Below are positions 2,579 to 34,214 of a DNA stretch of 64,000 nucleotides, piece after piece. The notes beneath the pieces are model-generated. The model had not been told where the DNA came from and did no database searches. It worked only from the letters and a program-made list of their open reading frames with translations. This stretch comes from Sphingomonas bisphenolicum (GTDB lineage Bacteria; Pseudomonadota; Alphaproteobacteria; Sphingomonadales; Sphingomonadaceae). Each line of letters starts with the position of its first letter. Within the stretch, counting starts at the first letter, position 1. Location: assembly GCF_024349785.1 (NCBI RefSeq), contig NZ_AP018818.1, forward strand, positions 1 through 64,000. The letters run 5' to 3'. Position numbers and translations under genes: made by a program.

Positions 2579-2592
2579 GAAATCTACCCCCC

Positions 2593-4167
2593 TTAGGACC
2601 GCTGGAACATGGCCAGCATACGGCGCGTGACCAGGAAGCCGCCAACGATGTTGATCGACGCGATCAGGATCGAGATCGTCGCCAGCGCGAGCACCACGTT
2701 ATTGGATGACCCGACCTGGAGCATGGCCCCCACCACGATGATCCCGGAAATGGCGTTGGTCACCGCCATCAGTGGCGTATGCAGCGCATGGCTGACATTC
2801 CAGATCACCTGGAAGCCAACGAAACAGGCCAGCACGAACACCGTGAAATGCGCCATGAAGCTGGCGGGCGCCACGGCGCCGACCGCGATCAACAGGATCG
2901 CGGCGACGATCAAAGTCGTGACCTGCGACCGGGTCTGCGCCTTGAACGCGGCGACGTCCTTCGCACGTTTCTGTTCGGGCGTCAGTTCCTCGGCCTTGGG
3001 CTTTGGCTTCTGCGCCGCGATCGCCTTGATCTTGGGCGGGGGCGGCGGGAAGCTGACCTCCCCTTCAAAGGCGACGGTTGCCCCCCGGATCACGTCATCC
3101 TCCATATTATGGACGATCACGCCATCCTTGCCCGGCGTCAGGTCAAAGAGCATGTGGCGGATATTGCTGGCATAGAGCGAACTGGACTGCGCCGCCATCC
3201 GGCTGGGAAAGTCTGTATAGCCGATGATCGTGACGCCGTTCGGGGACATGATCTTCTCATCCGTGACGGTCAGCTCGCAATTGCCGCCGCGTTCCGCCGC
3301 CAGATCCACGATGACCGATCCGGGCCGCATGGCTTCGACCATGTCCTTCGTCCACAGGACCGGCGCATCACGACCCGGAATAAGCGCGGTGGAAATGACG
3401 ATGTCGACGGTCGGCGCCAGTTCACGGAACTTCTTGAGCTGGGCTTCGCGGAATTCGGGGCTGGACGGGGCGGCATAGCCACCGGTCGCCGCGCCGTCCT
3501 GCTGTTCCTCCGAAAAGTCGAGATAGACGAACTGCGCGCCCATCGATTCGATCTGTTCGGCGACTTCGGGCCGGACGTCGAAGGCCAGCGTGATCGCGCC
3601 GAGCGATGTGGCCGCGCCGATCGCGGCCAGGCCGGCGACGCCGGCGCCGATCACCAGCACCCTGGCCGGCGGCACCTTGCCCGCCGCCGTTACCTGCCCC
3701 GTGAAAAAGCGGCCGAAATTGGCGCCAGCCTCGATCACCGCGCGATAGCCGGCGATGTTCGCCATGGATGACAGCGCGTCCATCTTCTGCGCGCGCGAAA
3801 TGCGCGGCACCATGTCCATCGCAATGACATTGGCGCCAGTCTTGCTGATGGCGGCCAATTCTTCGCTGCGCTGGCCGGGATAGAAGAAGGAGATCAGCGT
3901 CTTGCCTGCGGCGAGCCGGGCTGCCTCATCTGCTTCGGGCGGACGTACCTTGACGATGACATCCGACGCGGCCCACAATTCGCCAGCGGTTGGAACCACA
4001 GCCACGCCTGCGGCGCGATAATTGTCGTCGTCAAAGCCGGCCGCTTTGCCGGCTCCGCTCTCGACAAAACATTCATGGCCTAGCTTTTGCAGTTGCAGGG
4101 CGCTGTCAGGTGTCAGCGCAACACGCGCTTCCCCCTTCGCCACTTCTCTGGGTGCACCTATTCTCAC
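2593..4167 (-). CDS. pntA: NAD(P) transhydrogenase subunit alpha (fused form)
   Basis: Alpha subunit (524 aa) of the same transhydrogenase. Residues 1-380 are the NAD-binding domain ([13 protein letters not shown]ossmann motif); a charged linker rich in Lys/Pro/Glu follows; the last 100 residues hold the alpha2 membrane segment ([19 protein letters not shown]). Many alphaproteobacteria split this into pntAA and pntAB, whereas here it is one chain. Translation starts at a GTG (4165-4167), placed behind an AGGAAGGAAGA ribosome site; the protein begins [20 protein letters not shown]. First gene of the pntAB operon. Confidence 0.97.
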
Positions 4168-5446: not shown

Positions 5447-5567
5447 GCCGCAATTTCCGACATCTGTTTTCGATAGGCGACATCGATGCCGCCTGCGCTT
5501 TTCAGCGGTGTCCGGACCAGTCATCCTGACCAAAATGGTCGTCAGACCGGCTTGAGAGAGGATGGCA

Positions 5568-6713
5568 ATGACATTTGGATTTCCCGAGGCGGACGCGCTG
5601 CTGGCACGATATCCGCTGCCCGATTATCTGCGGGACAATGTGCGGCCCGGACTGGAGCAGCTGCTCGCCTCGATGGCGGAAGACCGGGCGCTCAACGCCA
5701 ATGGCCATGCGCGGGCGCTGCACATCATCGCCGACGACCTGTCCCGGCTGAAGGCGATCGCCGACGACCGGGCACGCTATCCCGAGATTGCCGACGTCGA
5801 AATCCGGCAGCCGCTCTTCATCCTGGGCCTGCCCCGGTGCGGCACCAGTTTCCTGCACGCGCTGATGGAAGGCGACCCGCAGGTCCGTACGCCGCTGATG
5901 TGGGAAGTGGCCGAGCCATCGCCCCCGCCCGAAGCCGCAACCGCCGATACCGACCCGCGGATCGCCCGGTTCGACGAACATCTGCGCGCGCAACTGGGCG
6001 GTGACGCCGACGAATTGCTGAAGGCTCATCCGCTGGGCGCCAGAATTCCTCAGGAATGCGGGTCGTTCATGACGACCGCCTTTCAGAGCAGCAATCCGTG
6101 CATGTTCCAGCATCTCCCGCGCTTCTACGACTGGTTCAAGGGCATCGACGCGACCTTCCGCTACGAAGTCCACAAGATGTGGCTTCAGCATCTGGGCTGG
6201 CGCCATCCCGGCCGGCATTGGGTGCTCAAGATCCAGGAGCATATGTACAAGCTCCCGGCGCTGCGCAGGGTCTATCCCGATGCGCTCTTCATCCAGCCGC
6301 ATCGCGACCCGACCACCGTCATCGCCTCCATTTCCCAACTGATTAGCGTCATCCGCGGGCCGTCCTACGACCAGCTCGACTTGCATGCGCTCGGCGCCGA
6401 GTTCCTGCAACTCTGGTGGGACGGGGTGAAATGCTGCATGGATTACCGCAAGGCGCACACGGATCTGCCGATCTACGACATGCGCTACAAGGATCTGGTC
6501 GCGGACCCGGTCTCGACCATTCGGGCCGCCTATGACCATTTCGGCTGGGATTTCACGCCGGACTCGGAAGCCGGCATAGTGGGCTGGCTGCGGGAGAATC
6601 CGGCGGGCAAGCATGGACCGCGGAGCTATACGCTGGCCGATTATGGCCTGACTGCCGAACAGGTCAGCGACAGGTTCGCCGACTATATCGAGACCTACCA
6701 TGCCTATCTCTGA
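5568..6713 (+). CDS. Sulfotransferase family protein
   Basis: PAPS-dependent sulfotransferase-type protein (381 aa). The 5'-phosphosulfate loop is seen as LGLPRCGTSFLHALM near residues 85-100 and the 3'-phosphate-binding segment as PHRDPTTVIASISQL near 245-260. It would transfer sulfate to a hydroxyl group of a small molecule; acceptor unknown. The ATG at 5568 is preferred because GAGAGAGG (5554-5561) runs right up to the alternative ATG at 5562. Its 3' end overlaps the DUF1214 gene by 14 bases, indicating translational coupling. Confidence 0.88.
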   Translation: MTFGFPEADALLARYPLPDYLRDNVRPGLEQLLASMAEDRALNANGHARALHIIADDLSRLKAIADDRARYPEIADVEIRQPLFILGLPRCGTSFLHALMEGDPQVRTPLMWEVAEPSPPPEAATADTDPRIARFDEHLRAQLGGDADELLKAHPLGARIPQECGSFMTTAFQSSNPCMFQHLPRFYDWFKGIDATFRYEVHKMWLQHLGWRHPGRHWVLKIQEHMYKLPALRRVYPDALFIQPHRDPTTVIASISQLISVIRGPSYDQLDLHALGAEFLQLWWDGVKCCMDYRKAHTDLPIYDMRYKDLVADPVSTIRAAYDHFGWDFTPDSEAGIVGWLRENPAGKHGPRSYTLADYGLTAEQVSDRFADYIETYHAYL

Positions 6714-7878
6714 ACCGTCGCAATGGCGTGCCTGGCTGGACCGGATGGCGGGGGCGGACGGCGTGCTGGACAGGCTGGCCGATTCGGGCGACCCGCAGGC
6801 CAGAGCCGAAGCGCATCGGCTGTTGTTCGCCATCCTCGCCACCGGCTATCAGACCGCCTTCGCCGATCCCGATCATCCCGATTTCGTGCCGTCGGTCAGC
6901 AACATCCTCAACACGGTCGGAGTCAATCCCGACTTCATCTATGGCGCGGCGCGGATCGACGGCAGCGGCGTCTACAGGCTGTCGGGCACGCGCGGGGACG
7001 GGGTGTTCGTGTTCCTCGATCTGGTCGCGGGCGGGCTGGGACCGATGGAGGATCTGGGGCCTTCGGTGGGCATGATCGATCTGGATGCCTGTACATTGGG
7101 CCCGGACGGCGCATTCGACATCCTGTTGGGCGGTGAGCGGCCCAAGGATGGTGCGGGCGACTGGTTCCCGCTCGACCCGCGCGCCGTCACCATCGGCCTG
7201 CGCCATGCCTATTATGACTGGGGCGCGGGGCGCGATCTGCGCATCGCGATCGAACGGGTCGACCGGCGCGTGGGCGGCGGCCCGATGCCCGCGGCCGAGA
7301 TCGCCCATCGGCTCGATCGCCTGTCGGCCTTCGTCGAACGCTATGCCGCATTCGCCCTGGGCTATGGTCAGCGGCAGCGGACGCAGGGCTTCGTCAACAG
7401 GCTGGAATATGACGACTGGGCCGGTCGTGGCGGCGTTGCCGGGCAGCATTATTATCAGGGCATCTTCCGGCTGGAACCCGGCGAGGCGATGATCATCGAC
7501 ACGGCGGTGCCCGACCCGGTGCGCTACTGGAACGTGCAGCTCAACGATCCGCTTTGGAACACGATCGACTGGATCAACCATCAGAGCAGCCTCAACGCCG
7601 CGCAGGCGCGGCTGGACAGGGACGGCCGCTTCCGAGCCGTCATCGCTCTGGACGATCCGGGCGTGCCCAACTGGCTCGATCCGGCCGGCCGCGACGAAGG
7701 GTCGCTGATGCTGCGTTGGACCGGGGCGAGTTCCGGGCCTGAGCCGACGCTCAGGATCGTGCCGGCGGCGGAGTTGCGCTCGCATCTTCCAGGCGACACC
7801 CCGCTGGTCACGCCGGCGCAGCGCGACGAGACGATCCGTCGTCGCCGGCGTGGTGCGCAATGGCGACGGCGCTGGTGA
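6700..7878 (+). CDS. DUF1214 domain-containing protein
   Basis: 392-aa protein of unknown biochemical role. The C-terminal half carries the DUF1214 pattern: YWNVQLNDPLWNTIDWINHQSSLN followed by a Gly/Asp-rich strand region and DDPGVPNWLDPAGRDEG with a downstream RW. No signal peptide. The start ATG at 6700 lies inside the end of the sulfotransferase gene, so the two are co-translated and may act on the same compound. The C-terminus ends in an Arg-rich tail (RRRRRGAQWRRRW). Homologues are frequent beside SDRs and sulfotransferases in sphingomonad and actinobacterial catabolic regions (family knowledge). Confidence 0.85.
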   Translation: MPISEPSQWRAWLDRMAGADGVLDRLADSGDPQARAEAHRLLFAILATGYQTAFADPDHPDFVPSVSNILNTVGVNPDFIYGAARIDGSGVYRLSGTRGDGVFVFLDLVAGGLGPMEDLGPSVGMIDLDACTLGPDGAFDILLGGERPKDGAGDWFPLDPRAVTIGLRHAYYDWGAGRDLRIAIERVDRRVGGGPMPAAEIAHRLDRLSAFVERYAAFALGYGQRQRTQGFVNRLEYDDWAGRGGVAGQHYYQGIFRLEPGEAMIIDTAVPDPVRYWNVQLNDPLWNTIDWINHQSSLNAAQARLDRDGRFRAVIALDDPGVPNWLDPAGRDEGSLMLRWTGASSGPEPTLRIVPAAELRSHLPGDTPLVTPAQRDETIRRRRRGAQWRRRW

Positions 7879-20260: not shown

Positions 20261-20542
20261 GTCGCTGCTCGACGGGTCATGATGGGGTTCTGCATTACGC
20301 GATTTTACCAAACGGCCGTCCGCAGATCGAAATAGCGGAACCGGGGGCTGCGATCATCGTCAATCGTCCGCTTTGCCTGTGTTTGTTGTGCAATATTCGG
20401 GGAATGGATGGGGGAGGCATATAGGAAAGGAATATGTCTCCTGCGCGACATATGTCGTCCCGGCGATAGTCGTGGCGGGGGCATGGGATGCGCTGTTGGC
20501 ATAGCCTTCGTCACAGTGGATAAAAATGAAATAGGATGAGTG

Positions 20543-21922
20543 ATGCGCAATCCGTCAATAATGGATGCCGGTCCGCAAGCGATACCGGAAAACGCATCGC
20601 TTTCCGCTGATGGGCGATCACTGCTTTCGTGGACAATTGTCGCGCTGTTTCTGCTCAACTGCCTTAATTATATTGATCGCCTGCTCTTCTCGGTCGCCCA
20701 GGAAATGATCAAGGTCGATCTCCATCTTAGCGATTTCCAACTGGGCCTGATTGGCGGACCCGCGTTCGCCATACTGTACACCGTTTTCAGTTTCCCGATC
20801 GCGCGGGCTGCAGACCGCGGTCGACGGGTGGGGATCATCGCCATTTCGCTGACATTGTGGAGTGCAATGACGGCCTTTTGCGGAATTGCGGCCAATTTCG
20901 TCCAGATGCTCATCGGGCGCGCCGCCGTCAGCATTGGCGAAGCGGGATGCACGCCAGCCTCGCATTCTCTGATCTCCGACGCATTCCCCGCGCAACGTCG
21001 AGCGACTGCCATCGCCATCTTTGCGGTTGCCGGTCCCTTTGGCGCAATCGTCGCAGCGGTGGGCGGAGGCGCTCTGATTGCCGCTTATGGTTGGCGCACG
21101 GCTTTCGTCATCTGCGGGATGGCCGGTATCGTCATGGCCCTGCTGTTCCGCACCACCGTAGCGGAACCGCCGCGCAGCCAAAACCGACCGCACCATTCCG
21201 CGTCGTTCGTCGACACGGTCCGCCAGTTGCTGGCCCGGCGCAGCTTCGCCCTGGTGGCTATAGCGGGGGGTGTTGCCGGGATCGGCTCCTACGCCAATCA
21301 ACAATATATGGTATCCTTCCTCATGCGTGGGCATGGTCTGTCCCTCGCCAATGCGTCGGCGTTGATGGGGCTGGTGATTGGTGGCGTCGGCATCGTCTGC
21401 ACGCTGCTGGGCGGCCCGATGATGGATCTCGGCGCGCGTCGCTACCCCCGGATCAAAGCCTGGCTCCCTTCCTTCGGCTTGCTCTGGTGCGGGGCGCTAT
21501 ATGCTGTCGCATTTCAGATTCCGACGGTTGGGCTTGCGGTGATGTTGATGGTGCTCGGGTCCATGGGGCAGCATTTCTACATGCCCGCCATGTATGCGCA
21601 CGGGCAGGACGTGGCCCCCCCGCATATGCGCGCCATGGCCTCCGCCATGATTATCGCCACAAGTTCCATATTGGGCTATGGATTGGGCCCGCCGCTGATC
21701 GGTCTTGCCAGCGATATATTGGGGGAAAGCGCGCGGGTGTCGGCAGGCCTCAGCCTGGCCGATTGCGCCAAGGGGGCAGTCGCGGCCTGCGAGGCGGCAA
21801 GCGCACAGGGGTTGCGCCTGTCGCTCAGCCTGGGATCCTGCTTCTTCATCCTGGCCGCTGGTTTGTTTGCGTGGGCGAGCCGATGGATAGTCGCGGACGT
21901 GCACGATGATGATCGGCACTGA
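20543..21922 (+). CDS. MFS transporter (Spinster-like)
   Basis: Inner-membrane major facilitator superfamily carrier (459 aa, about 12 membrane helices). FLLNCLNYIDRLLFSVAQEMIKVDLHLSD and the following GLIGGPAFAILYTVFSFPIARAADRGRR (a DRxGRR-type loop) are typical of the Spinster-like subgroup found in sphingomonad catabolic regions. AGGATGAG precedes the ATG at 20543; a GTG at 20540 is in frame but less likely. It probably moves the substrate delivered by the TonB receptors from periplasm to cytoplasm. Confidence 0.93.
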   Translation: MRNPSIMDAGPQAIPENASLSADGRSLLSWTIVALFLLNCLNYIDRLLFSVAQEMIKVDLHLSDFQLGLIGGPAFAILYTVFSFPIARAADRGRRVGIIAISLTLWSAMTAFCGIAANFVQMLIGRAAVSIGEAGCTPASHSLISDAFPAQRRATAIAIFAVAGPFGAIVAAVGGGALIAAYGWRTAFVICGMAGIVMALLFRTTVAEPPRSQNRPHHSASFVDTVRQLLARRSFALVAIAGGVAGIGSYANQQYMVSFLMRGHGLSLANASALMGLVIGGVGIVCTLLGGPMMDLGARRYPRIKAWLPSFGLLWCGALYAVAFQIPTVGLAVMLMVLGSMGQHFYMPAMYAHGQDVAPPHMRAMASAMIIATSSILGYGLGPPLIGLASDILGESARVSAGLSLADCAKGAVAACEAASAQGLRLSLSLGSCFFILAAGLFAWASRWIVADVHDDDRH

Positions 21923-23051: not shown

Positions 23052-24467
23052 ATGAGCAGCTATCTCGATCGACTGATCGCCGATCCTACCAGTTTCCACG
23101 ACGCGCCCTATACACAGGCCTTCACGCTCAGTCGCGAAGAGATCGACCGGCTGCATCTGGAAGGCGCGCGCAAGCGCTTTGCCGAATTGCGGCCCGGCCT
23201 GTCCGTGCTGGACAAGCTGGCGCGCGAGCAGGGTATCGACGCGATCAAGACGATCGACGATCTGGCGCCGCTGCTGTTTCCGCACACCGTCTACAAATCC
23301 TATCCGATCAGCTATCTGGAGCGCAGCCGCTTCGACAAGCTGACCAAATGGCTCGCCGGCCTGACGACCAGCGACATTTCCCATGTCGACGCCAGCGGGG
23401 TCGAGACGATCGACGACTGGATCGACCTGCTCGACGCGGAAACGGACCTGACCGTCCAGCACACGTCCGGCACTACCGGTAAGCTGAGTTTCGTCCCTCG
23501 CAGCAAGAAGCAGTGGCGCGAGACGATTGTCCATTCGGGGGTCATCATCCGCGACTGGTGGCCGGACCGGGGGCCAGACATCGTCAAAGACGGGATGCCG
23601 ATCATCATTCCGGGCTATCGCTATGGCGCTGCCGCGATGCAGCGCGGCAACGGCATCCAGGTTGACCTCTATGCCAAGGGCGAAGAAAACACTCTGTTCC
23701 TTTACCCCAACGCCCGGTTCAGCGCGGACATCGCCTCGCTGGGCGGTCGCCTGCGCGCGGCGGAGGCGCGGGGCGAGGCCGGCATGGTCGACATTCCGCC
23801 GGTCCTGCTGGAACGGCGGGAGGCGCTGCTGGAGCTGGAGCGCCGCCGGCCCGACGACCTCAAGCATTTCTTCAGCGAGGCGCAGCGCCGCTTCGGCGGG
23901 CGCGACGTCTATGTGACGGCGATGTGGGCGATCCTCTACGACTGGGCCGAGGAGGGGCTGAAACGCGGTCTCAAGAACGTCTTCGGCAAGGGCAGCGTGC
24001 TGCTGACCGGCGGCGGCAAGAAGGGCAAGGAACTGCCCGACGACTGGCGCGAGCGCGTGATCGAATTTCTGGGTTTCGATACGATCTATGAAATGTACGC
24101 CACATCCGAGCAGATGGGTCTGTCGATGATGTGCGAGCATGGCCATTATCACGTCCCACCCATCCAGATCCCCTTCCTGCTCGATCCGGCGACCGGAAAG
24201 CCCCTGCCGCGCAAGGACGGCCTGACCGGCCGCTATGCCTCGTTCGACCTGATGCCCAACAGCTATTGGGCCGGACTGGTGACGGGGGATGAGATCACTT
24301 TGGCAGGCTGGGAAAAGCCCTGCGCCTGCGGTCGCACCGGGCCGTACGTCATTCCGCCGGTGCGCCGCTACAGCGAGCAGGAAGGCGGCGATGACCGCAT
24401 CGTGTGCGCCGGCGCCCCCGAGGCGCACGACCGCGCCCTCGAATTTCTTGCCGAACTGTCGATGTGA
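23052..24467 (+). CDS. LuxE-like acyl-protein synthetase / AMP-forming acid activase (module 1)
   Basis: 471-aa adenylate-forming enzyme of the LuxE/phenylacetate-CoA-ligase-like group, predicted to activate a carboxylic acid as acyl-AMP and pass it to the LuxC-like partner. The phosphate-binding loop TSGTTGK is at 138-144, TGGGKKGKELPDDWR in the middle, EMYATSEQM is the A5-like element, and a CACG pair lies near the C-terminus. It is longer than Vibrio LuxE (about 370 aa). AAGGACGG precedes the ATG. The reductase gene follows after 8 bases. Paralogous to the minus-strand protein at 30166-31542 (shared YKSYP and DDW/DEW-IDL/LDR blocks). Substrate unknown. Confidence 0.85.
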   Translation: MSSYLDRLIADPTSFHDAPYTQAFTLSREEIDRLHLEGARKRFAELRPGLSVLDKLAREQGIDAIKTIDDLAPLLFPHTVYKSYPISYLERSRFDKLTKWLAGLTTSDISHVDASGVETIDDWIDLLDAETDLTVQHTSGTTGKLSFVPRSKKQWRETIVHSGVIIRDWWPDRGPDIVKDGMPIIIPGYRYGAAAMQRGNGIQVDLYAKGEENTLFLYPNARFSADIASLGGRLRAAEARGEAGMVDIPPVLLERREALLELERRRPDDLKHFFSEAQRRFGGRDVYVTAMWAILYDWAEEGLKRGLKNVFGKGSVLLTGGGKKGKELPDDWRERVIEFLGFDTIYEMYATSEQMGLSMMCEHGHYHVPPIQIPFLLDPATGKPLPRKDGLTGRYASFDLMPNSYWAGLVTGDEITLAGWEKPCACGRTGPYVIPPVRRYSEQEGGDDRIVCAGAPEAHDRALEFLAELSM

Positions 24468-24475
24468 GTAGAGCC

Positions 24476-25933
24476 ATGACCGATCCATTCCGCGTGCCCC
24501 TAATCATCCGGGGCCAGATTATCGATGATGCCGAGGTCGACTATGGCGGCCGCCGGGGTGGCGTCAGCTTCTCGGTGCCCGACATCGCCAAACATGTGGC
24601 GCGCCTGCCGCTGCGCACGCCTTCGGCCATGGCCGACCTCTATGCGCTGAGCTTTGACGAGATACTGGATTTCCTCGTCGCCCTGGGGCAGCGGCTCGAT
24701 TTCGGTCAGAACCGGCATTTGCAGGAAGCGTTTCGCCTGTCCTGCCAGACCTCCGGCCTGTCCGAGAGCATATTGCGCGTCCACTTCCAGCATATCGGCG
24801 CGGCCTTCGATCGCACCGAAATGCGCCGGATGATGGAACGCTCCTGTGGTGTCGACTATCTGGAAGGCTGGGTGGATCAGGGAGTCGGTAGATTTCCCGG
24901 ACTGACCGCCCGCACTCGCGCCTTTGGCGCGCGGACGGTGCATGTGATCGCCGGAAATGCGCCCATCGTGTCGATCCTGACGGTGATCCGCAATGCGTTG
25001 ACCCGGTCGGACGCGATCATCAAGCTGCCCTCCAACGATCCGCTGACTGCCGCCGCACTGGTGCGCACGATGGTCGAGATGGACCCCGACCATCCGCTGT
25101 CGAAACATGTCTCCGTCGCCTATTGGAAGGGTGGCGACGATCAGGTGGAATCGGCGATATACGATCCGCGCGGCGTCGAGAAGATCGTCGCCTGGGGCGG
25201 GTTCGATTCGGTCAAGCATATCACCCGCTATCTGCAACCGGGCATCGACCTCATCACCCAGGATCCCAAGCTGTCGGGGACGATCATCGGTCGCGAAGCC
25301 TTTGCCGATGAAACGACGCTGGTTCAGGTGGCGCGCCGTCTGGCGCTCGATATCGGCGCGCAAAATCAGGAAGGATGCGTGTCCGCACGCGTCATCTACG
25401 TCGAATGCGGCACGGACGAAGCCGGGCTGGAACGGGCCAATCGACTGGGGCAGATGACCTTCGACGCGCTCCTGCGCCTGCCCGATCATCTGAGCACGCC
25501 GCACAAGGCGTTCGACGGCGCGCTTAAAGCCGAGATCGACGGCATCCGCCTCAATGACGAGGATTATCGCATCTTCGGCGGTCGCACTAACGAGGGGGCG
25601 GTGATCGTCAGTCAGGAAGAATATCCGGTCGATTTCTCCCGCGCTCTCGCCTGCCGCGTGGGCAATATCGTGCCCATCGACAGCAGGGAAACGGCCGTCA
25701 GCGCAGTCAACGCCTATACACAGACGATCGGCATCTTTCCCGAAAGCCTCAAGGACGAGCTGCGCGACCGCCTCGCTTTCCAGGGCGCACAGCGGATCGT
25801 GTCGCTGGGCGGTGCGGCGACGATGCAGCATAATATGGAACGGCAGGACGCGATCGAGCCGGTCCGCCGCATGCTGAAATGGGTGACGGAAGAACAGGCA
25901 TCGGGCGAGATGCTGGCCGCGCTCGCAGGCTGA
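24476..25933 (+). CDS. LuxC-like acyl-CoA/acyl-protein reductase (module 1)
   Basis: 485-aa member of the LuxC (PF05893-type) branch of the aldehyde dehydrogenase superfamily, reducing an activated acyl group to the aldehyde with NADPH. VHVIAGNAPIVSILTVIRNAL (residues 156-176, read as two blocks) and KLPSNDPLTAAALVRTM are LuxC hallmarks; the probable acyl-accepting Cys is C301 in AQNQEGCVSAR. Starts at 24476, 8 bases after the LuxE-like stop; the amidohydrolase follows 14 bases on. With its partner it would act as a two-subunit carboxylic acid reductase. Clear paralogue of the gene at 28737-30149. Confidence 0.87.
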   Translation: MTDPFRVPLIIRGQIIDDAEVDYGGRRGGVSFSVPDIAKHVARLPLRTPSAMADLYALSFDEILDFLVALGQRLDFGQNRHLQEAFRLSCQTSGLSESILRVHFQHIGAAFDRTEMRRMMERSCGVDYLEGWVDQGVGRFPGLTARTRAFGARTVHVIAGNAPIVSILTVIRNALTRSDAIIKLPSNDPLTAAALVRTMVEMDPDHPLSKHVSVAYWKGGDDQVESAIYDPRGVEKIVAWGGFDSVKHITRYLQPGIDLITQDPKLSGTIIGREAFADETTLVQVARRLALDIGAQNQEGCVSARVIYVECGTDEAGLERANRLGQMTFDALLRLPDHLSTPHKAFDGALKAEIDGIRLNDEDYRIFGGRTNEGAVIVSQEEYPVDFSRALACRVGNIVPIDSRETAVSAVNAYTQTIGIFPESLKDELRDRLAFQGAQRIVSLGGAATMQHNMERQDAIEPVRRMLKWVTEEQASGEMLAALAG

Positions 25934-25947
25934 GAGGAGCCAGGGAC

Positions 25948-27660
25948 ATGGTGGAAGCTGATCTGGTGATTCGGGGCGGCACGATCGTCGACGGGCAGGG
26001 CGGTGAGCCGTTCGAGGCGGACATCGCCATCATGGGTGGCCGGATCGCGGCGATCGGTGCTGATGTCGGGCGGGGCCGCGAGGAGATCGATGCCCGCGAC
26101 CTGCTCGTCACGCCCGGCTTCGTCGATGTCCACACCCATTATGACGGGCAGGTCACCCGGTCTGACAGTCTGGTGCCGTCCGCCGACGATGGCGTCACCA
26201 CCATCGTCATCGGCAATTGCGGGGTCGGCTTCGCCCCATGCCGGCCGGAGGACCGCGAGGCGCTGGTCAATGTCATGGAGGGGGTAGAGGACATTCCCGA
26301 AGCGGTGATGGCGAAGGGCCTGCCCTGGAACTGGGAAAGCTTCCCGGACTATCTGAAATCCCTGGAAGCGCGCGCCTGGGATGCCGATGTCGGCGCCTAT
26401 ATTCCCCATTCGCCCCTGCGCGTCTATGCGATGGGCCAGCGCGGGCTGGACCGCGAGCCGGCCACCGCGGCCGATGTCGCGCGGATGGCGGATCTGGTGG
26501 CGGAAGGGATGGCGGCCGGCGCGCTCGGCTTCGCGACGTCGCGATCGCTGGTACATCGGCGCGGTGACGGCGCCTTCATCCCCTCCTTTCAGGCAGACAG
26601 CGACGAACTGGTGGCGATCGCCCGATCGGTCGGGGATGCCGGGCGCGGCGTGCTGCAGATGATCCCCAATCTCGATACCGCCGACTGGTCCAGCGATCTT
26701 GACCTGATGAAGCGCATGACCAGCGCCTCGGGGCGTCCGCTGACCTATTCGCTGGCCCAATGGTCGACCGATCCGCAGGGCTGGCGGCGGACCATGGATG
26801 CGCTGGCCGAACATAATCGCAGCGGTGCAGGGCCGGTGCTGGCGCAGGTGTTCCCCCGGCCGATGGGCGCGATGTGCGGCCTGTCGACATCGGCCAACGC
26901 GTTCAGCCATTGTGCAAGCTATCGCGCGATCGCCGACCGGCTGCTGGCCGAAAAGGTGGCCATCATGCGCGATCCCGCTTTTCGCGCGCGACTGATCGCG
27001 GAGGAGCCGGACGAGACGCCGACGCCGCTGCATCGCTTGCTGCGCACCTGGGACAATATCTATCCGCTCGGCGCCGAGCCGGACTATGAACCTTCACCTG
27101 ACCAGAGCATCGCCGCGCTGGCCACAAAGCGCGGCGTTAGTCCGGTCGAGCTGGTCTATGACCTGATGCTGGAACAGGACGGGCATACGCTGATCCTGAT
27201 GCCCTTTTCGAACTATGCGGAAAAGTCGCTCGATCCCGCCCTGGCCATGATGCGCGATCCCTACAGCATCGTGGGACTGGGCGACGGCGGCGCGCATTAT
27301 GGCATCATCTGCGATGCCAGCTATCCGACGACCATGCTGGCCTACTGGACCCGCGATCGGGCTGGCGAGCAACTGACGATCCCGGCGGCGGTCAAGGCGT
27401 TGAGCGCGGATAATGCCGATTTTCTGGGGCTGCGCGACCGGGGACGGCTGACACCGGGGTTGAAGGCCGACATCAACCTGATCGATCATGGCGCGCTGCG
27501 CCTGCATACCCCCCATGTCGTGCATGACCTGCCCGGCGGCGGACGTCGCCTGGCGCAGCAGGCCACCGGCTATCGCGCCACGATGGTCAGCGGGATCATC
27601 ACCCGGCGGGACGGCGCCGATACCGGCGCGCGTCCCGGAAGGCTGATCCGCGCCGCCTGA
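25948..27660 (+). CDS. Amidohydrolase family protein (D-aminoacylase-like)
   Basis: 570-aa metal-dependent hydrolase of the D-aminoacylase branch of the amidohydrolase superfamily. The N-terminal metal motif VDVHTHYDGQV is at about 60-70, GNCGVGFAPC follows, and GLGDGGAHYG near residue 450 carries the C-terminal metal Asp. The ATG has GAGAGGAGC upstream and lies 14 bases after the LuxC-like stop, so it is co-transcribed with module 1. It may release an acid or amine from an amide or cyclic imide that feeds or follows the reductase; the substrate is not inferable from sequence. Confidence 0.88.
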   Translation: MVEADLVIRGGTIVDGQGGEPFEADIAIMGGRIAAIGADVGRGREEIDARDLLVTPGFVDVHTHYDGQVTRSDSLVPSADDGVTTIVIGNCGVGFAPCRPEDREALVNVMEGVEDIPEAVMAKGLPWNWESFPDYLKSLEARAWDADVGAYIPHSPLRVYAMGQRGLDREPATAADVARMADLVAEGMAAGALGFATSRSLVHRRGDGAFIPSFQADSDELVAIARSVGDAGRGVLQMIPNLDTADWSSDLDLMKRMTSASGRPLTYSLAQWSTDPQGWRRTMDALAEHNRSGAGPVLAQVFPRPMGAMCGLSTSANAFSHCASYRAIADRLLAEKVAIMRDPAFRARLIAEEPDETPTPLHRLLRTWDNIYPLGAEPDYEPSPDQSIAALATKRGVSPVELVYDLMLEQDGHTLILMPFSNYAEKSLDPALAMMRDPYSIVGLGDGGAHYGIICDASYPTTMLAYWTRDRAGEQLTIPAAVKALSADNADFLGLRDRGRLTPGLKADINLIDHGALRLHTPHVVHDLPGGGRRLAQQATGYRATMVSGIITRRDGADTGARPGRLIRAA

Positions 27661-27666
27661 TCAGGC
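27655..27666. terminator. Shared palindrome over two convergent stop codons
   Basis: GCCTGATCAGGC is a perfect 12-bp palindrome that contains the stop TGA of the amidohydrolase (27658-27660) and, on the other strand, the stop TGA of the aldo/keto reductase (27661-27663). Flanking GCGC blocks can extend the pairing with a one-base bulge. The two genes abut with no gap. Confidence 0.5.
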
Positions 27667-28728
27667 GCGCGGCCGGATGTTCGTCCCGCCCGTCAGTCCA
27701 TGGCGGATGAAGGGTGAGGCAAGGAAATCATGCGGAAAGCCGAGCGGTGTACGGCTCACTGCATCCAGCCGTTTCAGTTGCGCGGGCTCCAGCGTGACGC
27801 CAAGCGCGGCGACATTGTCCGCATATTGGCGCATCGTCCGTGCACCCAGCAGCGGCGATACGACCGCTGGATTGGCAAGGGTCCAGGCGATCGCCACTTG
27901 CGCCGAGGTGACGCCCATCTCGTCGGCGACGCCCTTGACCGCGTCCGCAATGGCCACCACGCGCGCATCGACGCGGCCTCCCGCTTCGAGCAGAGCACCG
28001 CGACCGCCAGTCTCGCCGGCATGGGCGCTGCCGCCGGTCGCATATTTGCCCGACAACATGCCGCTCGCCAGCGGCGACCAGGGCATGACGCCGATACCCA
28101 GCGCCTTGGCGGCGGGGATAAGGTCGCGCTCGGCCGTGCGCTCCACCAGATTATATTCGGACTGCAAGGCCACCAACTGGCTCCAGCCACGCAATTCCGC
28201 CATGGTCTGCAACCGGGCCATCTGCCAGGCGGGGGTGTCCGACAGGCCAAGATAGAGGATCTTGCCCTGTGTCACGAGGTCGTCGAACGCGCGCAATATC
28301 TCGTCTGCGGGCGTGGTGTCGTCCCAGACATGGAGGAAGAACAGGTCGATCCGATCCGTCTTCAGCCGCTTGAGGCTCGCTTCCACCGTTTGCACCATAT
28401 TGCGGCGGCTGTTGCCGGCGGCATTGGGGTTGCCGACCGAATGAGTCAGCGAATATTTGGTGGAAAGGACCAGCCGTTCGCGCTTCGCCTCCGCGAACTT
28501 GCCCGTCAATATCTCCGACGCGCCGTCGGCATAATAGCCCGCCGTGTCGATAAAATTGCCGCCCTGATCGACATAGCTGTCGAAGATGCGGCGGGATTCC
28601 TGTTCGTCGGCGCCCCATTCTTCGCCAAAGGTCATGGTTCCCAGCGCCAGCGGCGAAACGCGCAGGCCCGAGCGGCCAAGCAGGCGATAGCTGTCGAGCG
28701 ACAGCGGCTGAGTAGTCGTCTGTGTCAT
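27661..28728 (-). CDS. Aldo/keto reductase
   Basis: NADPH-dependent aldo/keto reductase (355 aa), normally aldehyde or ketone to alcohol. FIDTAGYYADGASE holds the catalytic Asp and Tyr, VLSTKYS the Lys and FFLHVWDD the His; the C-terminal nucleotide-binding segment is LGARTMRQYADN. True start is the ATG at 28728 (MTQTTTQPLSLDSYRLLG): the frame stays open to 29247 through the upstream gene, but that part is not AKR-like. Lies 8 bases after the LuxC-like gene of module 2, so the module would run acid to aldehyde to alcohol. Confidence 0.92.
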   Translation of the reverse strand: MTQTTTQPLSLDSYRLLGRSGLRVSPLALGTMTFGEEWGADEQESRRIFDSYVDQGGNFIDTAGYYADGASEILTGKFAEAKRERLVLSTKYSLTHSVGNPNAAGNSRRNMVQTVEASLKRLKTDRIDLFFLHVWDDTTPADEILRAFDDLVTQGKILYLGLSDTPAWQMARLQTMAELRGWSQLVALQSEYNLVERTAERDLIPAAKALGIGVMPWSPLASGMLSGKYATGGSAHAGETGGRGALLEAGGRVDARVVAIADAVKGVADEMGVTSAQVAIAWTLANPAVVSPLLGARTMRQYADNVAALGVTLEPAQLKRLDAVSRTPLGFPHDFLASPFIRHGLTGGTNIRPRA

Positions 28729-28736
28729 GATCTGGT

Positions 28737-30149
28737 TCAATCTTTCGCTGCTTCCGTGACGACCCAGTGCATCATCTTGTGCACGGGCCATCCCCCATCG
28801 TGCGGCAGGCCGCCGAATTTTCCGGTGTTGATGTTGCCGAGGCCGACGATGCGCTGGGCGCCCGCCGAGGAAAGCCCGTCGCGCACCTCGGCAATGCGGG
28901 AGGGGGGATAGACGCCGACCGACTGGGTCGCGACGGTGACATGCTGTATCGCATCGGCCAGCCGGTCCACTGCGACGACATTGACGAGCTTGCCACCCGG
29001 ATTGAACGACACGGGCTCGCTGGAGCGGATGACCATGCCTTTGCCGTCGGGACGTCCGAACAGGCGGTAGATGGGTTCCAGATTGCCCAGCATGTCCAGT
29101 TCGTCGATCAGCATGGCGGGTGGCAGCGGGCCATCGGGACCAGTACCATAGCGGATGTCTTGGCCCATCGCCTCCACCAGCGCTTCGCAATAGCGGTCGA
29201 CCTCTTCGTCCGATCCCTCGACGAACTGGAAGCGGGCGCAACTGCACGCATCCTGGTTGAAGGCGATGATGTCGGCTGCGCTCCTCTCGGCGATGGTCGC
29301 GAGGGGCACGCCGTCGAACGCTTCGCGACCGATCAGCGAGATGGACACCTTAGGATCGAAGGACATGATCTCGAAGCCCGGTGCGGCATATTGCATGGCA
29401 TGGCGTACCGCCGCCTCGCCGCCCCAGACCGCGAGCTTGTCGAAATATTGCGAGCGCAGGATGTGATTTTCGATGCTGACATCGCCGCCGCGCCAATAGG
29501 CGGCGGAGAAGGAGCGCGTCACAGGATGGTTGGGGCCGACATCCGCCATCGTCCGTAGCAGGGCGGTCGCCGTGAACATGTCGTTGGACGGCATCTTCAG
29601 CAGGTGGACGCCCTTGCTGATCGCCCCTCGCACGATCGTGACCGGCGGCACGATCGGGGCGTTGCCGGCCAGAACATGCACCATCCGCGGCGGGAAGGCG
29701 CGGATGTCGAAGGCCGTGCCCTGAATATCGCGTCGCGCCCAGCCATCCAGCACGTCGAGCGATCCCAGCGACTGTTCGGCTTCCGCCTCGACCGCGTCGC
29801 GGGTGAAGAACCAGGCGATGTCGCGATAGCAATTCTCCAGGATGCGGGCGCCCAGACTGTTGCAGCGCAGATTATAGGCCGCGGCTTCCTGGAGATGGAT
29901 GTTCCGGTCGAAATCGAGCGCCTTGCCGACTTCGACGAGAAAATCCACGATCTCCGCAAGCGGCGTGTCGAAGGCGGGACCGGGCTGGCTTCGCGGCCAG
30001 ATCAGGGAGTCCAGATCGATCGACGGGGTCATGACCGTCGAGCCGCTGGCCCGCGAACGATGCTCCACGGCGGCGTCGAGTTGGACCACGCCCTTGATCA
30101 CATGGGGAACGAGCAACCGGTCATTATCGGGGATGATTTCATGCAGCAT
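28737..30149 (-). CDS. LuxC-like acyl-CoA/acyl-protein reductase (module 2)
   Basis: 470-aa LuxC-type reductase, paralogous to the one at 24476-25933: VHVLAGNAPIVPPVTIVRGA, KMPSNDMFTATALLRTM, AYWRGGD and DPKVSISLIGREAF all have counterparts. The presumed catalytic Cys is C302 in FNQDACSCAR, with a second Cys two residues on that module 1 lacks. GGGAGACAGAC precedes the ATG at 30149. It follows the LuxE-like gene after 16 bases and precedes the aldo/keto reductase. Substrate specificity presumably differs from module 1, but this cannot be read from sequence. Confidence 0.87.
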   Translation of the reverse strand: MLHEIIPDNDRLLVPHVIKGVVQLDAAVEHRSRASGSTVMTPSIDLDSLIWPRSQPGPAFDTPLAEIVDFLVEVGKALDFDRNIHLQEAAAYNLRCNSLGARILENCYRDIAWFFTRDAVEAEAEQSLGSLDVLDGWARRDIQGTAFDIRAFPPRMVHVLAGNAPIVPPVTIVRGAISKGVHLLKMPSNDMFTATALLRTMADVGPNHPVTRSFSAAYWRGGDVSIENHILRSQYFDKLAVWGGEAAVRHAMQYAAPGFEIMSFDPKVSISLIGREAFDGVPLATIAERSAADIIAFNQDACSCARFQFVEGSDEEVDRYCEALVEAMGQDIRYGTGPDGPLPPAMLIDELDMLGNLEPIYRLFGRPDGKGMVIRSSEPVSFNPGGKLVNVVAVDRLADAIQHVTVATQSVGVYPPSRIAEVRDGLSSAGAQRIVGLGNINTGKFGGLPHDGGWPVHKMMHWVVTEAAKD

Positions 30150-30165
30150 GTCTGTCTCCCGTCGT

Positions 30166-31542
30166 TCAGGCCGCGACCGGCTGAGGTGCGGTGATCGATC
30201 CGCGCACATAGGAATCGATCGACCCGGCGCAGCTCAGCTTGTCCTCGCCCTCCTCCAGATCGGCGTAGCGGGCGATCGCATGGACGACCGGCGTCTTCAC
30301 GCCTTCCAGGCCGGAGCCGAACTCCACCTGCACCTTGTCGCCGGAAATGATGCCGCCCCAGCGGCCGTCGGCCAATATGTCGAAAAATGCCATGCGGCCT
30401 TCGACCCGACCGATATCCCTGGTCGTGCCCAGCAGCGTTTCGCCCGGCTTGTCGAGGATGAGGGGAATGATCCATGGCGGCACCGCATAGGATTCGGTCG
30501 GCTGGATCTTGGCGCAGAAGCCGCTCATTTCGACCATGGCATAGGAACTGGTGATGCGGTCCGGCGTGACGCCGAAAAAGCCCATAATCTGTTCCTTATA
30601 GTCGGCCGGCACAGCCGCCCCCTTGGTGCCGCCGCCAAAGCTCATCAGCGTGTCGGGATGGAAATCGCCGTCCTTGATCCCGCGCGCGCGCAGGGCCTGC
30701 ACGATCTGCCAGGCGACGCCATACATGACGCCGATATAGAGCGGGCGATCCCGGCGGCTGACGAGCAGGTCCATCCAGGCGTCGAACTCGCCGGCCCGCG
30801 TCTGCTGGCGCGCCTCGACCTCCGCCTCATAGGCGGCGACCTCGCCGGGACCGACCTTGCCCGCCGCCAGCAGACGGCGTAGCTGCGCGGGGCGCATGGC
30901 GTCGAAGGCGCGCATCGGATAGTCGCTCAGGCGATGAAATTCGCCCGGCGCAGCCCAGCGCGGGAAATGGACGTTGCAGAAGTCGATCATCTTGTGGGTG
31001 CCGCGCGGCGGCATCATGGTGAAGACCGAGCGGCCATGATCGGGGACATAGGCCGGTGTCGACAGGTCGGCGGCCGCCAGACAGGCGGCGAGCGACAGGT
31101 CGCGGTCCTGCGTCGACTGGTTGAGGAAGGAGGATTTGCCCGAGGTCCCGCTCGACGCGAAGACATGGTGGCCCGCCGCCCTAGCGCGGTCCAGCCATTC
31201 GTCGATGTCGCGCACATCCGCAACGTCGATATTGTCGGTGGCATGGCTGCTCAGCGTGCCGAGCCACATGTTCATATGCTTCCACTGACCATTGTCGACG
31301 AAGGCCTCGGGATAGCTTTTATAATTGGTGTGGGCGAACAGGAGCGGGACGAGGTCGGTCAGGCTGTCGATGCTGTCGATACCGGCTTCTTTCGCCCGCT
31401 TGTCGAGAACCCTGATCTGCTGGCGGCGCTCCACGAAGCGCTCGCGCGCCGCTTCCAGTTGCAGTTCGGCCAGATCGTCCGGGGCATTACGGAAAGGATC
31501 GGGCGACCGGGCAAGGGCGATCAATTCGTCAACGGCGCTCAT
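30166..31542 (-). CDS. LuxE-like acyl-protein synthetase / AMP-forming acid activase (module 2)
   Basis: 458-aa adenylate-forming enzyme, paralogue of the module 1 protein. The loop is SSGTSGKSSF (130-139), FGGGTKGAAVPADYK matches TGGGKKGKELPDDWR of the paralogue, and SSYAMVEM matches the A5-like element. Unlike module 1 it lacks the C-terminal CACG pair. GAGAGGAG precedes the ATG. First gene of a minus-strand operon with the LuxC-like and aldo/keto reductase genes, divergent from the SnoaL/LEH-like gene at 31761 across 218 bases. Confidence 0.83.
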   Translation of the reverse strand: MSAVDELIALARSPDPFRNAPDDLAELQLEAARERFVERRQQIRVLDKRAKEAGIDSIDSLTDLVPLLFAHTNYKSYPEAFVDNGQWKHMNMWLGTLSSHATDNIDVADVRDIDEWLDRARAAGHHVFASSGTSGKSSFLNQSTQDRDLSLAACLAAADLSTPAYVPDHGRSVFTMMPPRGTHKMIDFCNVHFPRWAAPGEFHRLSDYPMRAFDAMRPAQLRRLLAAGKVGPGEVAAYEAEVEARQQTRAGEFDAWMDLLVSRRDRPLYIGVMYGVAWQIVQALRARGIKDGDFHPDTLMSFGGGTKGAAVPADYKEQIMGFFGVTPDRITSSYAMVEMSGFCAKIQPTESYAVPPWIIPLILDKPGETLLGTTRDIGRVEGRMAFFDILADGRWGGIISGDKVQVEFGSGLEGVKTPVVHAIARYADLEEGEDKLSCAGSIDSYVRGSITAPQPVAA

Positions 31543-31760: not shown

Positions 31761-32135
31761 ATGCCCGGTCCACTGGACGAAGCATTGGCGTTTTTTCGGG
31801 AAAGCAGCGGCGCGCGCGAAGATATGCTGTCCGCCATGGAGCGCCGGTTCACGGTGGATACGCGCTGGGAAAATGTCGGCGTGGCGACGACCGTCGGGAT
31901 CGATCAGGCAAGGGCGTTCGTCGAGGGTTTTCTGGGCCGGATTCCTTTCGAACGCTGCGCGGTCGTGGTCCATCATGCGGCGGCCGCGGGCAATGTCGTC
32001 CTGACCGAGCGCAGCGATATTTTTTACGGGCCGGACGGGCAGGAAATATTCTCGCTGCGGCTGATGGGCACGCTGGAAATGGACGGCCCCCATATCGTCG
32101 CCTGGCGCGACTATTTCGACACAAGCGGTTTTTAA
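31761..32135 (+). CDS. SnoaL/limonene-epoxide-hydrolase-like protein
   Basis: Small 124-aa protein of the NTF2/SnoaL cone fold. The ending HIVAWRDYFDTSGF has the Arg-Asp spacing of limonene-1,2-epoxide-hydrolase-type catalytic strands, and TRWENVGVATTVGIDQARAFVEGF fits the N-terminal half, so epoxide opening or a cyclase/isomerase role are both possible. GGAGCAGGGGG precedes the ATG. First gene of an operon with the luciferase-like monooxygenase (11 bases later). Confidence 0.78.
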   Translation: MPGPLDEALAFFRESSGAREDMLSAMERRFTVDTRWENVGVATTVGIDQARAFVEGFLGRIPFERCAVVVHHAAAAGNVVLTERSDIFYGPDGQEIFSLRLMGTLEMDGPHIVAWRDYFDTSGF

Positions 32136-32146
32136 AAGGGGATGCT

Positions 32147-33169
32147 ATGACCGATCGCAAGGCTGTCTGGGCGCAGATCGTCCCGATGCCGGGGGCCAAT
32201 CTGTCGGCGCTGGCGCAGAGCTACGAAGCAGCGGGTGTGGAAGGGGTATGGGCGCCCCAGATGTTCGGCGCGCCCTTCACGACGCTGGCCGCCGTCGCGC
32301 CCGCTACGCAGCGCATCAAGCTGGGGACCGGCATTGCGCTGGCCTTTGTGCGCAGTCCGCTGGAGACAGCGTGCGGCGCCATCGATCTGGACCTCATCAG
32401 CAATGGTCGGGTGGTGCTGGGGCTGGGATCCAGCGCGCAGAGCCAGATCGAGGGATCGTTCGGCAGCGCCTATGGCAAGCCGCTCGCCCATATGCGCGAG
32501 ATCGTGGGCATGATCCGCGCGATCGTGGCGCGCGGGCATACGGGCGAACTCACCGAATTGGCGGGCGACTATCACCGGCTCGACCTTTCGCACTTCCGCC
32601 TGCTGCACAAACCGGTGCGCGGCGACATTCCCATCGTCCTGCCGGCGGTGTTCCAGAAGGCCTGTGCGCAGGCGGCGGAAATTGCCGATGGGCTGCTGGG
32701 CCATCCGCTTTGGAACGATGCCTGGATCGAGCGGGAAGTGGCCGCACATGTGAAGGCTGGGCTGGATCGGGCCGGGCGTGCGCGCAAGGATTTCTCGCTC
32801 AACATTTCGATCTTCACCGCGATTTCCGACGACAGGTACGAGGCGATCGAGGATTGCCGGGGGACCGTGGCCTATTATAGCCAGTCACCGCAATATCTGC
32901 GCTATTTCGAGGAAATCGGTTTCGGCCGCGAGGCCTCGGCGATCCAGGCCGCTTTTGCGCAGGGCGACATGGCGGGCATGGCGACGGCTTGCACCGACGA
33001 GATGGTAGAGAGCATCGCCGTGGTCGGTACGGCGGACGAGGTGCGGGGGCGGGTCGCGCGGCGCGCCGCCCTGGCCGATGCGATCACGCCGGTCATTCCG
33101 CATTATGGCCTGTCGCCCGAAAAGAGCGCGATCTACACGCAGCGCATTGCGGAGACATTCTATGGCTGA
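32147..33169 (+). CDS. LLM class flavin-dependent oxidoreductase (luciferase-like)
   Basis: 340-aa TIM-barrel enzyme of the bacterial-luciferase-like superfamily (same fold as LuxA/LuxB), using FMNH2 or F420H2. GVWAPQMFGAPFTTLAAVAPATQRIKLGTGIAL, the RSPLETA and NGRVVLGLGSSAQ segments are standard for the family. Could be a Baeyer-Villiger-type monooxygenase, an aldehyde/amine monooxygenase or an F420 dehydrogenase. Its stop overlaps the methyltransferase start by 8 bases, showing tight coupling. No dedicated flavin reductase is adjacent. Confidence 0.88.
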   Translation: MTDRKAVWAQIVPMPGANLSALAQSYEAAGVEGVWAPQMFGAPFTTLAAVAPATQRIKLGTGIALAFVRSPLETACGAIDLDLISNGRVVLGLGSSAQSQIEGSFGSAYGKPLAHMREIVGMIRAIVARGHTGELTELAGDYHRLDLSHFRLLHKPVRGDIPIVLPAVFQKACAQAAEIADGLLGHPLWNDAWIEREVAAHVKAGLDRAGRARKDFSLNISIFTAISDDRYEAIEDCRGTVAYYSQSPQYLRYFEEIGFGREASAIQAAFAQGDMAGMATACTDEMVESIAVVGTADEVRGRVARRAALADAITPVIPHYGLSPEKSAIYTQRIAETFYG

Positions 33170-34214
33170 TCCCACTGCTGTCGCGGCCATGGCGGGGGAC
33201 GGACTCTACAACCGGCATTCGGGCCTGCAACAGGCCAATCTGCAATCCGCGCTCCCGCTGCTGGAGGATGCGGCGCAGGCCGTCGGCGACGGTTCGGCTG
33301 GTCCTGTCACTATCGTCGACTATGGCGCGTCGCAGGGGCTCAATTCGATGGCACCGATGGCGACGGCCATCGATCTGGTGCGCGCGCATGACGCGCGGCG
33401 GCCGGTGCAGGTCGTGCATACGGACTTGCCCTCCAACGACTTCACGTCGCTATTCGGCCTGCTGGACCGGGACCCGGCCAGCTATCTGAACGGCCGGCAG
33501 GGCGTCTTTCCGTCCGCCATCGGCCGGTCCTATTTCGATACGATATTGCCACCCGCCAGCGTGGATCTCGGCTGGTCCTCCAACGCGCTGCACTGGATGA
33601 GCCGCAACCCGGTCGACGTCGCCGATCATGGCTGGGCGATCTTCAGCCGATCCGCGGAGGCGCGGGCCGCCGTCGAGGCGGTGCTGGCGGATGACTGGCT
33701 GGCCTTCCTGAAGGCGCGCGCCGTCGAATTGCGGCCGGGAGGGCGCCTGATCTGCCAGTTCATGGGCCGGGGCGCCGACAGCCACGGATTCGAATGGATG
33801 GCCGGAAACTTCTGGCAATCGATCGTCGCCATGGAAGGCGAAGGACTGTTCAGCGCCGACGAGACGCTGAGGATGACGGCGCCCTCGGCGGGGCGTTCGA
33901 TCGATCAGATACGCGCGCCTTTCGATGCCGGGCTGGTGCCAGAGCTGGAACTGGAGCATCTCGCAGCGATCCCATCCCCCGACCCCTATTGGGACGCCTA
34001 TCAGCGGAGCGGCGACGCGGCCGAACTGGGGCGACAATGGGCGACCATGATGGGCGCGGCCAACGGCCCTAACTTCCTGGCACGGGTCGATGCATCTCGT
34101 GATCGGGACGCCTTGCTGGCCAGTCTGGTCCAACGGGTCGCGGACCGGGTCGAGGCCGATCCGCAGCGCAGCCGTGCCTTCATCCTGATCCTGTCGATCC
34201 GGAAGGCGGTTTGA
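33162..34214 (+). CDS. SABATH-type SAM-dependent carboxyl methyltransferase
   Basis: 350-aa methyltransferase resembling the SABATH family (plant salicylate/jasmonate/farnesoate carboxyl methyltransferases). Landmarks in order: GLYNRHSGLQQANLQ (14-28, the YxxNSxxQ-like SAM/substrate motif), IVDYGASQGLNSM (51-63), HTDLPSNDFTSLF (86-98, counterpart of NDLPxNDFN) and GWSSNALHWMSRNP (137-150, counterpart of SSxxLxWLSxxP). It would convert a carboxylic acid into its methyl ester. Overlaps the monooxygenase gene by 8 bases. The acceptor is unknown; a terpenoid-like acid is a guess from context. Confidence 0.85.
   Translation: MADPTAVAAMAGDGLYNRHSGLQQANLQSALPLLEDAAQAVGDGSAGPVTIVDYGASQGLNSMAPMATAIDLVRAHDARRPVQVVHTDLPSNDFTSLFGLLDRDPASYLNGRQGVFPSAIGRSYFDTILPPASVDLGWSSNALHWMSRNPVDVADHGWAIFSRSAEARAAVEAVLADDWLAFLKARAVELRPGGRLICQFMGRGADSHGFEWMAGNFWQSIVAMEGEGLFSADETLRMTAPSAGRSIDQIRAPFDAGLVPELELEHLAAIPSPDPYWDAYQRSGDAAELGRQWATMMGAANGPNFLARVDASRDRDALLASLVQRVADRVEADPQRSRAFILILSIRKAV

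Follow-up and report, generated by a model that had tools for sequence, protein, structure and literature searches.

LuxE and LuxC of luminous bacteria act through a C-terminal cysteine of LuxE and a cysteine of LuxC, and LuxD releases the free acid in luminescence. Carboxylic acid reductases (CARs), in turn, carry adenylation, carrier and reductase domains on one chain. LuxE-LuxC systems are already known, and so are pairs from dark bacteria annotated under other names. Adjacent LuxE-like and LuxC-like genes stand among oxidoreductases on plasmids of Sphingobium TomTYG46, Caballeronia Sq4a, Mycobacterium avium (pP7a), Paraburkholderia sprentiae and Pseudonocardia (pLS1-1). In plasmid records of dark bacteria the LuxC relatives are named acyl-CoA reductases, with bioluminescence as the Gene Ontology term where one is given, and their LuxE-like partners are hypothetical proteins. 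The first 64,000 nucleotides of contig NZ_AP018818.1 of Sphingomonas bisphenolicum (hereafter the window) hold two such pairs, E1-C1 and E2-C2, facing each other around an amidohydrolase (AMH) and an aldo/keto reductase (AKR). We consider it probable that each pair forms a carboxylic acid reductase of the LuxE-LuxC type, with two subunits and dependent on ATP and NADPH, and that both act together in an inducible, horizontally spread catabolic island. The six genes are:

23052-24467, plus strand: E1, LuxE-like adenylating protein of 471 aa, with a TSGTTGKLSF loop and C452 near the C-terminus
24476-25933, plus strand: C1, LuxC-like acyl reductase of 485 aa (PF05893), with catalytic-type C301
25948-27660, plus strand: AMH, D-aminoacylase-like amidohydrolase (PF07969), 3' of E1-C1
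27661-28728, minus strand: AKR, aldo/keto reductase of 355 aa (PF00248), 3' of E2-C2
28737-30149, minus strand: C2, LuxC-like acyl reductase of 470 aa (PF05893), with catalytic-type C302
30166-31542, minus strand: E2, LuxE-like adenylating protein of 458 aa, with an SSGTSGKSSF loop and C438 near the C-terminus

The plus-strand operon runs E1-C1-amidohydrolase and the minus-strand operon E2-C2-AKR. Their 3' ends join without an intervening base (0 nt from one stop codon to the other), and the gaps within the operons are 8, 14, 8 and 16 nt. The amidohydrolase probably starts at 25948 rather than at 25879; the C2 open reading frame (ORF) can be read from 30209, and GGGAG precedes the ATG at 30149. 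Re-reading of the ORFs bore out the gene order, strands and coordinates of the first-pass annotation, and the AGNAPIV, SND and YKSYP blocks to which it had pointed are present in the translations. It had also called the pairs clear paralogues. Paralogous they are, with C1 and C2 36% and E1 and E2 29% identical, but the trees described below make the relationship an old one. E1 is found at 95-98% identity in five named Sphingobium genomes, which places the window in that genus.

C1 and C2 are members of PF05893 (142.7 and 163.5 bits, cut-off 21), yet neither is a bioluminescence LuxC by the NCBIfam cut-off. C301 of C1 and C302 of C2 both align with the cysteine of the solved LuxC, and their column holds cysteine in 80 of 80 LuxC rows of the alignment. 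The residues proposed as catalytic from the first reading were thus the right ones, and the cysteine has not been lost in any of the aligned homologues.

The relationship of E1 and E2 to LuxE is more distant. E1 matches just PF00501, weakly and below the cut-off, and E2 matches no Pfam family; PF04443, presumably the Pfam acyl-protein synthetase (LuxE) model, is assigned to one homologue (P0091) among the 120 matches listed. The solved LuxE (PDB 7xc6) is the first match of both the E1 and the E2 profile, with E-values of 0.001 and 0.006. It is absent among the fold matches listed, which is uninformative either way. In the fold comparisons PaaK-type CoA ligases rank highest, but the match ends before their last domain: this last part of the phenylacetate-CoA ligases and their kin has no counterpart in E1 and E2, which have a short cysteine-bearing tail instead. 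We aligned 96 rows, namely E1, E2, Photorhabdus LuxE and 93 stretches from the fetched loci, keeping near-copies but discarding any stretch that contained a stop or had less than 80% coverage. The column of E1 C452 and E2 C438 holds cysteine in 95 of these rows and a gap in one, and the C-terminal C360 of Photorhabdus LuxE falls in the same column. Another cysteine, E1 C361, follows the adenylation motif and is invariant, together with C424 and C426, in the 28-row alignment of E1's own family; as this position is cysteine in just 78 of the 96 rows, it does not qualify as the shared acceptor. In both families the 28-row alignment shows the adenylation residues unchanged, namely those of the Gly/Thr/Lys loop, the Y..E glutamate and the GD aspartate. 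E1 and E2 resemble LuxE in design and are called LuxE-like in that sense, a label upheld by profile, fold and terminal cysteine but not by a Pfam LuxE match. On the question of whether the proteins fall into unrelated families, C1 and C2 belong with LuxC, whereas the E proteins are only remotely of the LuxE kind. With the terminal cysteine in 95 of 96 E rows and the LuxC cysteine in 80 of 80, both ends of an acyl relay are present.

The two kinds of gene also travel together. Among the loci L036-L114, 63 of the 72 E genes with sufficient flank adjoin a LuxC gene on the same strand, and in the 74 E-C pairs seen, C lies downstream of E in 65 and upstream in 9. Over 71 pairs, E and C distances correlate at 0.966, against a maximum of 0.157 over 1000 permutations; this argues for joint inheritance rather than contact, because species relatedness alone would raise such a figure. 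The earlier suggestion of a two-subunit acid reductase is thus supported in part, by the adenylation motifs, the terminal cysteine on E, the LuxC cysteine, and the adjacency and covariation of the genes. A different chemistry has to be weighed here, in which the acyl group travels on CoA and not on a protein cysteine: the LuxE-like protein would be an acyl-CoA ligase of the PaaK type, and its LuxC-like partner would reduce the acyl-CoA. PaaK-type enzymes are indeed the best fold matches, a CoA ligase is the best match of E1 in a single-sequence PDB search, and the plasmid records name the LuxC-like partner accordingly. We nevertheless regard a CoA carrier as unlikely, as the ligase match stops before the last domain, where the nearly invariant terminal cysteine stands instead, and E and C adjoin and co-vary, neither of which a diffusible CoA ester would need.

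The reading as two linked acid reductases gains from the joint occurrence of the modules. A full-length E2 orthologue (at least 73% identity) is present in 9 of 94 Sphingobium genomes, several of them near-copies of L036-L040, and in all nine an E1-type gene starts ∼7 kb away in convergent orientation. The two-module arrangement therefore exceeds chance, and the co-occurrence of both pairs in sphingomonads, which the first-pass annotation had proposed as a check, holds for every Sphingobium genome found with a full-length E2 orthologue. Across 396 genomes drawn from the host's order, 18 give any E-like match at 1e-20. Both modules occur in 11 of the 79 loci found with the E1 profile, spanning three bacterial groups. 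Nine loci are convergent (L036-L042, L049 and L064), their hosts being Sphingobium, a Hirschia metagenome-assembled genome (MAG), Novosphingobium lentum and two sphingomonad MAGs. The other two, in a Verrucomicrobiaceae MAG (L043) and the gammaproteobacterium MAG BRH_c0 (L044), are tandem, in the order E2-C2-MFS-amidohydrolase-E1-C1, the major facilitator superfamily (MFS) assignment coming from a scan of L043 only. The AKR is present in 9/9 convergent loci, and the amidohydrolase in 7/9 convergent and 2/2 tandem loci. A further Sphingobium carries a broken E2 orthologue (G248:C11:49872-50649), in two overlapping pieces covering residues 1-259 at 83% and 77% identity.

Several results weigh against this reading. 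Against the NCBIfam bioluminescence LuxC equivalog NF052251, C1 and C2 reach 131.5 and 139.9 bits, compared with a cut-off of 750. The Pfam LuxE model gives no match to E1 or E2 at an E-value limit of 10, a test in which the HMMER filters discard most matches above about 0.1. A comparison of E2 with Photorhabdus LuxE by hhalign is just 9% probable, and in the single-sequence PDB search with E1 a phenylacetate-CoA ligase came first (0.049) and LuxE third (0.17). Seven of the 72 E genes have no LuxC neighbour detected, and two have one on the opposite strand only. The tandem loci L043 and L044 yielded no relative of the AKR, and the amidohydrolase is missing in L042 and L049. Finally, six Burkholderia-group loci have E1-C1 without E2 in their flanks, and one genome (G357) has E2-C2, its only E1 match being E2 itself; the modules can therefore stand alone.

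Compared with the LuxC-LuxE fatty acid reductase (7xc6), the likeness is that of a two-gene system with the LuxC family cysteine and an adenylating partner with a C-terminal cysteine. The differences are that E1 and E2 are ∼90 residues longer than luminescence LuxE and below Pfam recognition, and that two modules lie here in a catabolic-looking setting. No luxA/luxB/luxD arrangement was found in the window: its single luciferase-like protein scores best against a different subfamily, and no acyl-transferase family recognised as that of LuxD was found among the window proteins scanned, which did not include every ORF. The proposed net reaction, acid + ATP + NADPH to aldehyde, is like that of CARs, but E and C are separate genes with a reductase of the LuxC type, and no carrier domain was matched in the E and C scans. 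The plasmid pairs share the adjacent LuxE-like and LuxC-like genes, but show no convergent two-module layout within the stretches examined; the P. sprentiae plasmid has one C and two E2-type genes. E-like and C-like genes also share contigs in Hodarchaeota MAGs (L076, L077, L089 and L111), at 37-40% and 51-54% identity to E1 and C1. In LB400, the E1-C1 locus, which may or may not belong to the diterpenoid (dit) cluster, lies on a 1.47 Mb replicon that we take to hold that cluster. The passages of PMC10710418 and PMC13063091 that we drew on give no dit coordinates. A steroid or tomatine link of the pairs in Sphingobium Tom strains was considered and set aside: PMC10653915 covers strain RC1, and its main text contains neither 'reductase' nor 'acyl'. 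Among the titles listed in a limited literature check, none concerned paired LuxE-LuxC modules outside luminescence.

On Pseudonocardia plasmid pLS1-1 (L129, 3638-14025), a type I polyketide synthase (KS-AT-KR-carrier), an E-like gene, a C-like gene, an uncharacterised protein and a P450 form one run, which is likely to represent a biosynthetic use of the same acid-reducing pair. This position of the pair, in an operon immediately after a polyketide synthase and before a P450, raises the question of whether the modules of the window also serve small-molecule biosynthesis, with an aldehyde or alcohol as product, rather than catabolism. The surroundings suggest otherwise. Upstream of the module lie genes for two TonB receptors as well as for an MFS transporter and an AraC regulator; further on come short-chain dehydrogenases/reductases (SDRs), acyl-CoA dehydrogenases, a P450 and a Rieske oxygenase, and there is no polyketide synthase among the window proteins scanned. 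The window thus looks like an inducible catabolic island, and a biosynthetic role seems to us slightly less likely again than a CoA carrier.

How the two modules came together was addressed with quick trees only, with SH-aLRT support. In the LuxC tree, type-1 and type-2 proteins form two separate groups, and one clade (96), next to the single modules of the Burkholderia group, unites the C1 of the window with those of ten two-module loci. Type-2 relatives from single-module genomes were absent from this first tree, so that its C2 clade could not serve as a test. In the extended trees, all two-module C2 proteins fall in one 20-row clade (99) and all two-module E2 proteins in another, also of 20 rows (95), and the nearest branch outside both is that of the P. 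sprentiae proteins (L128); the rows L025, L026 and L140-L144, labelled 'other', are Sphingobium genomes with both modules. The single-module genome G357, of another sphingomonad (L027, G357:C4:314417-315772; 61% identity to E2 and 69% to C2) nests inside both clades. The inner branching agrees between the modules: L043 groups with L044, the Sphingobium loci form a group of their own, and Hirschia and the remaining sphingomonad loci fall in between. This is most simply read as a single joining of two modules that were distinct beforehand and moved together afterwards, with a later loss of module 1 at least once or a separate spread of module 2. Recent local duplication of one module is ruled out by the two old clades. 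Ratios of nonsynonymous to synonymous substitution (dN/dS) of all six genes are 0.03-0.12 against L039 and L040, indicating purifying selection; the comparisons with L041 and L064 are near saturation. A second module that only backs up the first, on the same substrate, would suit the shared families and gene logic and the occurrence of each module alone in some genomes, but is highly improbable given 29% and 36% identity, two old clades and purifying selection on both where they co-occur.

Beyond the six genes, the following features of the window are of interest:

20540-21922, plus strand: MFS transporter adjoining the module, also near E1 in L036-L041 and L064
22001-22894, plus strand: AraC-type regulator, directly 5' of E1
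31761-32135, plus strand: SnoaL/limonene-epoxide-hydrolase-like small protein, divergent from E2
32147-33169, plus strand: luciferase-like flavin or F420 oxidoreductase (LLM; PF00296), best NCBIfam match TIGR03617, below cut-off
33165-34214: carboxyl methyltransferase (PF03492, which we take to be SABATH-type) adjoining the luciferase-like gene and conserved at 90-93% in L036-L039
43678-51395: stretch of under 8 kb encoding three ecdysteroid-kinase-like proteins together with a CrtO-like FAD protein, an epoxide hydrolase (EHN) and a Rieske oxygenase

Relatives of the AraC regulator stand 5' of E1 in L036-L040, L042, L052 and L064, and at 33-40% identity in six Burkholderia-group loci. The CrtO-like protein is far below the CrtO family cut-off; relatives (41-42%) lie beside E1-C1 in 6/6 Burkholderia-group loci (L045-L048, L050 and L051), that of L051 being 42% identical by direct comparison. 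The evidence for an isoprenoid flavour of the island is circumstantial. Directly 3' of the E-C pairs (80 with flank, four cut by an edge) we counted an SDR 15 times, an AKR 10 times and an amidohydrolase six times, near-identical Sphingobium loci being counted separately and the SDR counts possibly low; 45 pairs are followed by something unmatched by the window's own proteins. Ten of these unmatched neighbours were scanned. LysR regulators account for three of them, and there is one each of an MFS transporter, an FMO-like flavoprotein and an extradiol-dioxygenase-like protein, the last followed by a CoA-transferase; three gave no match. Nine of the ten AKR followers come from two-module loci. 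Elsewhere an AKR lies directly after the E-C pair in L075 and near E-C pairs in L019 and L073, which would fit a flow from aldehyde to alcohol. The closest solved relative of the AKR is DepB, presumably the ketone reductase of mycotoxin breakdown, followed by other aldo/keto reductases.

Three further candidates were dropped. An NAD(P) transhydrogenase (1127-4167) had been considered as a dedicated NADPH supply after a similar P. sprentiae gene pair. Its alpha subunit occurs at 90% identity or more in 8 of 41 sampled Sphingobium genomes, seven of them without an E-like match, and G211 has both modules but no alpha copy at 90%. At 5562-7878, a sulfotransferase and a DUF1214 gene overlap by 14 bases, and their relatives stand side by side on the P. 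sprentiae plasmid (L128), near E2/C2-type genes and the sulfate-activation genes CysN, CysD and CysQ. These were rejected as part of the system, since DUF1214 at 85% or more also occurs where there is no E2 match of at least 70% (G468, G424, G459, G417 and G452). A lux-type link of the luciferase-like gene proved too weak: among the matches listed, 4 of the 12 genomes with matched contigs (14 searched) have a PF00296 gene no more than 10 kb from an E-like gene, where a rough hand estimate of the number expected for all 14 is ∼1.2. A CofD-family gene, of a Pfam family that also matches in E. coli, lies 45 kb past the window (G000:C2:108661-109458). The host may therefore make coenzyme F420, and an F420 role for the luciferase-like gene is possible.

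From gene content and conservation we infer the reaction together with its cofactors and acyl relay, induction and transfer of the island, and what the amidohydrolase and AKR do. The LuxE-like subunit would adenylate a free acid and load the acyl group onto the cysteine of its flexible C-terminus (C452 or C438); this tail would then swing into the LuxC-like partner, where the acyl group would move to C301 or C302 and NADPH would release the aldehyde. The two pairs would cooperate, either on two acids of one pathway or on a single substrate with two carboxyls. One of the acids is probably supplied or consumed by the amidohydrolase, which could free it in analogy to LuxD, while the AKR would remove one aldehyde. 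Our guess for the acid is a bulky isoprenoid-type (terpenoid-type) one, because P450, epoxide hydrolase, ecdysteroid-kinase-like and carboxyl methyltransferase genes share the window. A more specific proposal is possible, if on balance doubtful: the lux relay may have been recruited, as two co-inherited complexes, into the catabolism of hindered isoprenoid-type carboxyls via CoA-free reduction to aldehydes, with the flavin/F420 enzyme, the P450 or the AKR acting next. If true, this would be a reductive entry into the breakdown of acids beyond ordinary beta-oxidation.

What is new here is the conserved terminal cysteine of the LuxE-like proteins alongside the LuxC cysteine. The recurrence of the two-module version from a Verrucomicrobiaceae MAG to Sphingobium leads to a testable claim, that of a widespread two-protein route from free acids to aldehydes. 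If this is true, biocatalysis would gain a new tool alongside the single-chain CARs, and a function could be assigned to a protein family whose members number in the hundreds (560 and 382 matches in the homologue searches).

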